Source: Deltaproteobacteria bacterium (GTDB lineage Bacteria > UBA10199 > SBBF01). Taken from it: a DNA stretch of 39,398 nt. This document shows, in pieces, positions 10,867-11,889 of the stretch. The stretch is taken from positions 1-39,398 of the forward strand of contig JACPFC010000022.1 of assembly GCA_016183175.1 (NCBI GenBank), in the 5' to 3' direction. The notes beneath the pieces are model-generated. The model was not told where the DNA came from, searched no databases, and saw only the letters and a list, made by a program, of their open reading frames with translations. A program made the position numbers and the translations under genes. Position 1 is the first letter of the stretch; the number at the start of each line of letters is the position of its first letter.

Positions 10867-11889
10867 TCAACCTAGCACACGGACCGCCCCTTCTTCAACC
10901 AAAAAGTATGCTCCTTTCTCTTTGAAATCATTGGATAATTTTGACTTTTCCGTGGCGGTAATAAAGACCTGCCCAGGGGTGGTTTGGAGGGTGGAAAAAA
11001 GCCCCTCGATTCGATCCGAATCGAGTTCGGAAACAACGTCATCGAGAAGAAAAATGGCGCTTTTTTGATGCCCTTTTTCATGCAATTTGATCTGCGAAAG
11101 TTTGAGGGCGATCACTGCGGAGCGGTTTTCCCCCTGCGACCCGAATTCACTGATGGAACGGCCGTCGATCAGGAAGGAAAAGTCGTCCCGGTGGGGGCCG
11201 ACAATCGATTCGCCTCGTTGCCTTTCTTCCGCTTCTTTTTCACGGATTAAATTTTGAAGCGCCTGAAAAATTTCCTCCTCCGTCTCCCCTTCCGTCGACG
11301 AACGATAAACCATCTTCGCCTCTTCCTTTCCGCGCGACAGATTCCGATACTCCTCCCCGATCCTCTCGTTCATTTTCCGAACCCACTCGATTCTCTGTTC
11401 GACAATGATCGCCCCGAGTTTGGCCAGTTGTTCATTCCATATCTCCAAGGCGGCAGGGCCGACGACGCCAGTGGCGTTGCCACCTCTCCCCTCCTTTAAA
11501 ATCCGGTTTTTTTGCGCCACCACCTCGTCATAGGCACCCAAGGTTTTAAGCGATGCGGGATAATCCAGAAACACCGCCTGATTCAAAAACCTGCGCCGTT
11601 GTGACGGCGATTCGCGAAAAAGATAGACCTCCCCCGGTTCAAATAGGAGGAGAGGAACAAGACCATAGTACTCCCTGAAAAGGTGGGGTCTTTTTTTGTT
11701 GAGCAGAACCTCTCTTGTCGTCCGGTTTTCCCTTGTCTCGAAGGAAATCCGGATCTGATGCGAAACCGGCGGGGTGTTCAAGAAAGCCTCGATCATCGCC
11801 GACGGTTCTCCCTTGGACAAGAGGTGATCTCGTGTCACGGTTCGGAACGATTTAAGATAGTTTTTTAAAGAAAGCGCCTGTATGTGCAC
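10867..11889 (-). CDS. recF: RecF recombination mediator lacking its Walker A segment
   Basis: A 340-residue SMC-like ATPase family member that loads RecA at gapped DNA. It matches RecF from residue 12 on: [45 protein letters not shown], the signature [17 protein letters not shown] and Walker [16 protein letters not shown]. The N-terminus runs [11 protein letters not shown] directly into LKSFRT; the roughly 38 residues between, which in RecF hold the [14 protein letters not shown] Walker A loop, are absent in frame. GTG 11889 is forced as start because TGA lies two codons upstream. ATP binding should be lost, so the product is probably inactive unless the missing piece is an assembly artefact. 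Confidence 0.9.

Follow-up and report, generated by a model that had tools for sequence, protein, structure and literature searches.

A recF gene without its Walker A segment in a Deltaproteobacteria genome, probably following a recent in-frame deletion

We analysed a stretch of 39,398 nucleotides from a Deltaproteobacteria genome (assembly GCA_016183175.1, contig JACPFC010000022.1; hereafter the window), in which the recF gene of the dnaA-dnaN-recF-gyrB cluster is without the segment that holds the Walker A motif. The reading we favour, with a probability of roughly two in three (about 0.68), is that this recF has suffered a very recent in-frame deletion of 111 bp and is now a null or near-null allele at an early stage of recF loss. 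The evidence for the deletion comes from a single assembly, the one genome of its species and genus in the analysis.

The gene occupies 10867-11889 on the minus strand, begins with a GTG codon (11889-11887) and is open over 340 codons; its start, stop and translation were confirmed as given in the first-pass annotation, as was its place beside intact dnaN and gyrB. Both profile and structure matches identified its product, which scored 238.9 bits against TIGR00611 (recf; cut-off 172), with the match beginning only at profile position 40 of 339, and for which RecF came out top in the PDB both in sequence and in predicted fold. The fold of the remaining protein was confidently predicted (mean pLDDT 90.2, top structural match RecF), a value that would look good either way, as the prediction was guided by intact relatives. 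Near the N-terminus, the Walker A motif or P-loop (G-x-N-x-x-GKT) was absent, while the ABC signature region (SQGENR; 11101-11145, minus strand) and the Walker B motif with its D-loop (11020-11055, minus strand) were intact and the same as in aligned relatives, as had been claimed. The neighbours, all intact and on the minus strand, were dnaA (13347-14774, 475 aa), dnaN (11936-13033, 365 aa) and gyrB (8424-10844, 806 aa), the last of these 22 nt downstream of recF. Judged by its sequence, the gene is recF by descent and not a complete RecF ATPase, and it represents the usual chromosomal recF within the dnaA-dnaN-recF-gyrB cluster. Elsewhere in the window, a 373-aa open reading frame (3008-4129) combines a HAD-type phosphatase-like N-terminal half with a Nudix-like C-terminal half, and another (1546-2250, minus strand) carries a FolB-like domain after about 127 residues that match no family, possibly reflecting an over-long start or a fusion.

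What is missing was defined by comparison with relatives. The closest one found, G002 (same family; contig JACQOY010000159.1 of a Deltaproteobacteria groundwater genome), also has recF between dnaN and gyrB, and its RecF is 73% identical to that of the window, with the same signature, Walker B, C-terminus and GTG start; unlike the window, it has 37 extra codons, including GKNAQGKT, between a block ending in LKN and a block beginning with YLKSFR, which the window joins directly. On the minus strand, Asn10 ends at 11860 and Tyr11 starts at 11859; the junction falls between them, within the interval of 11853-11862 proposed at first pass, and the 37 codons (111 bp) absent relative to G002 bear out the in-frame loss that had been put at about 38 residues and 110-120 bases. 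Alignment with the relatives placed the segment, with its G-x-N-A-Q-G-K-T motif, in G002 and in every other RecF of the class that could be read with its N-terminus on a contig. Against these intact orthologues, the 111-bp loss is an inactivating lesion of the kind expected in a pseudogene.

The segment did not turn up in another place. It was encoded in none of the three frames upstream of the window recF, where the first-pass annotation had considered that the P-loop might lie, and a search of the whole 2.35-Mb assembly with the segment found it nowhere else. The possibility that it had moved was rejected, as the sole match (contig 106, 27346-27633) fell in a 389-codon frame that encodes a different ATPase and is followed by a separate small gene. 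A RecF search of the same genome returned this locus alone and hence no second RecF. Locus L036, on contig 106 of this genome, comprises a gene for a 382-aa AAA-type ATPase directly followed by a 207-aa gene, beside an aminopeptidase-like gene; the pair is a candidate for the type of two-gene ATPase cassette found in defence loci. Direct-repeat slippage was also rejected, as the present sequence has no suitable repeat and the G002 DNA has no long homology at the breakpoints, so that no direct repeat accounts for the deletion.

Other differences from the relatives were found in and next to recF. The gap between dnaN and recF measures 46 nt in the window versus 7 nt in G002, and contains a 31-nt alternating purine-pyrimidine tract with an 11-bp stem-loop (11903-11933, minus strand), which adds a second alteration at the 5' end of recF. 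A 26-codon frame starting at an ATG within this tract, three bases past the dnaN stop codon, overlaps the recF start out of frame, and the fold of the whole gap was not exceptional compared with shuffled sequences (z -1.16). Allowing up to 3 mismatches, a genome search found the hairpin at this site alone, which ruled out a repeat family linked to the REP-type transposase-like gene of the window; that gene (17160-17762) matches the REP-associated tyrosine transposase family NF047646 at 62.8 bits, short of the cut-off of 80. Within recF, two private in-frame insertions of about 8 residues (11458-11481, minus strand) and 4 residues (11716-11727, minus strand) were absent from five relatives, and the longer contains the inverted repeat GTGGC-AAC-GCCAC; both may be ordinary loop changes. 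G002 has neither of these insertions, nor the hairpin.

The loss of recF is common in this class. RecF scored above the cut-off in 30 of the 46 genomes of the class, which are also the 46 genomes covered by the phylum-wide scan, and was missing from the other 16, including 9 of the 29 high-quality ones. In the seven recF-less genomes that were inspected (G033, G038, G008, G022, G015, G042, and G013), gyrB directly follows dnaN, so that both neighbours are kept as in the window, whereas recF is wholly gone from these genomes and still has 340 open codons in the window. Based on the 16 genomes without RecF and these dnaN-gyrB junctions, recF is dispensable in the class and has been lost repeatedly, which is in line with RecF being the rarest of the RecFOR proteins among bacteria (PMC1193525). 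Two further candidates for a RecF without a P-loop (G031 and G045) were rejected, as their late match starts were due to contig ends, and the window thus holds the only P-loop-less RecF among the 46 genomes. The viral contigs searched contained no relative, and a literature search found no published report of a natural RecF without a P-loop.

Having located the lesion, we then considered its age. Aligners set the N-terminal IQALSLKN of the window against the helix that follows the P-loop, a placement that we judged to be an artefact, as IQxLxLKN matches the N-terminal strand of the relatives; for this reason, a helix predicted for residues 2-11 was not trusted. The rate test was repeated from the YLKSFR anchor, after the deletion, with five relatives. 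The resulting branch lengths for the window and G002 were 0.236 and 0.175 for RecF (ratio 1.35), 0.148 and 0.124 for DnaN (1.20), and 0.060 and 0.054 for GyrB (1.11). Across 81 RecF columns that were invariant in the outgroups, the window and G002 each had one private change, that of the window being P278A, just before Walker B. The dN/dS values between the two genomes (RecF 0.13, DnaN 0.07, and GyrB 0.06) are rough, with synonymous sites near saturation at about 1.3 synonymous substitutions per site. Under simulated neutral substitution, the recF frame was closed in about 82% of runs by 0.05 substitutions per site and in about 97% by 0.1, and since closure is this fast relative to the synonymous divergence of the pair, the recF branch can have been free of selection for no more than a small fraction of its length. 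The rest of the window RecF has no stops and no acceleration beyond its neighbours, and therefore shows none of the decay expected of a pseudogene; it follows that the deletion is very recent, or is not real, or, least likely, has been tolerated by a constrained protein. Of the three readings offered at first pass (a recent in-frame deletion, a structural RecF, or a mis-assembly), the recent deletion is the best supported, given the open frame, the lack of excess substitutions, the intact form in all readable relatives and the repeated loss in the class.

Unlikely, but the alternative to be taken most seriously, is that the organism has an intact recF from which the assembler or the binning dropped 111 bases, or for which it took a rare or chimeric molecule. 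The sequence comes from a single metagenome-type assembly of 137 contigs with 3% contamination, the normal constraint on the rest of recF is what such an artefact predicts and fits it equally well, and a length that is a multiple of three has a one-in-three chance of arising anyway. Against this, the window and G002 sequences show no flanking repeat at the junction for a k-mer graph to collapse, and none of the other contigs carries an intact copy or an isolated P-loop fragment. The recN gene of this genome is also informative about the assembly: its two parts lie at the ends of contigs 89 and 43, which overlap by exactly 141 identical bases, and joining them gives an open frame of 584 codons. 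The shared end points to an assembly graph with k = 141, and the record name of G002 also contains 'k141'. The default largest k of MEGAHIT is 141, and graphs built at this k normally keep only joins that are seen in the reads. Since the contig overlap points to such a long-k-mer assembly, an unsupported join at the recF junction is unlikely.

It is very improbable that the truncated protein is an ATP-independent RecF kept by selection, for example as a structural partner of RecR or of the DnaN clamp. Its 340 open codons, the purifying selection on the remainder and the confidently predicted fold would all suit such a role, and a direct contact between RecF and DnaN has been proposed (PMC10287930). 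However, a loss of ATP use in the distant past should have let the signature and Walker B relax, and both are unchanged relative to the relatives; the truncation is common to no relative, and the E. coli K36R protein forms few foci and gives no complementation (PMC10287930). The structural RecF suggested at first pass is accordingly poorly supported, with no sign of a long-lived ATP-independent state. Still less probable is a population with both alleles, intact and deleted, of which the deleted one entered the assembly, as no second contig carries the intact form and the contig is unbroken through the locus, although this is an environmental population genome and a recent deletion would have to pass through a polymorphic stage.

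Returning to a recent deletion as the preferred reading, its consequences can be considered in the light of what is known of RecF. The protein holds two ATP molecules, each between the Walker A of one monomer and the signature of the other, and its DNA binding is highly ATP dependent (PMC10287930). The 111-bp deletion would take out the second strand and the Walker A loop, together with the helix that comes next, and because Walker A is absent, neither ATP site could form; ATP binding would be lost, and with it the ATP-sandwiched dimer through which RecF holds DNA and cooperates with RecR. By analogy with the ATPase-dead K36R protein of E. coli, which is likewise intact apart from a disabled ATP site, the window RecF is expected to fail in ATP-dependent dimerisation and in binding to DNA and RecR; K36R is a change of one residue made in the laboratory, whereas the window is a natural genome from which the whole Walker A segment is absent. 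We infer that the window recF is a null allele in which the reading frame was preserved.

In that case, RecO and RecR would be left to load RecA at gaps. RecO, RecR, and RecN were all present in the genome, so that the check for backup genes urged at first pass turned up RecN together with RecO and RecR, and neither a second RecF nor a RecB/AddA-sized helicase. The helicase search, which was aimed at RecB and AddA in a genome of which about 4% may be missing, found just two UvrD-type helicases, whose open frames are 777 and 663 codons long. Under certain stresses, E. coli strains that carry a recF deletion or recF(K36R) behave unlike those mutated in recO or recR (PMC6451095), and the loss of RecF is therefore not equivalent to the loss of the pathway.

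The way in which the gene was damaged may also matter for the operon. A frame-keeping deletion would leave read-through undisturbed and the downstream gyrB spared, and the kept recF frame may thus protect gyrB in a manner analogous to the practice of E. coli strain builders, who keep the 3' parts of these genes and so preserve downstream promoters (PMC6451095). The window would represent an early stage of recF loss, the finished state of which would be the dnaN joined to gyrB that is found in other members of the class.

The finding leaves the picture of how RecF works unchanged, and it illustrates that a match above the cut-off of a family model can label a protein 'RecF' though its ATP site is gone. 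If the deletion is real, the window offers a snapshot of recF loss before other clear damage, in a class where finished loss is common, and suggests that recF loss can begin with a lesion that preserves the frame and keeps the operon readable.
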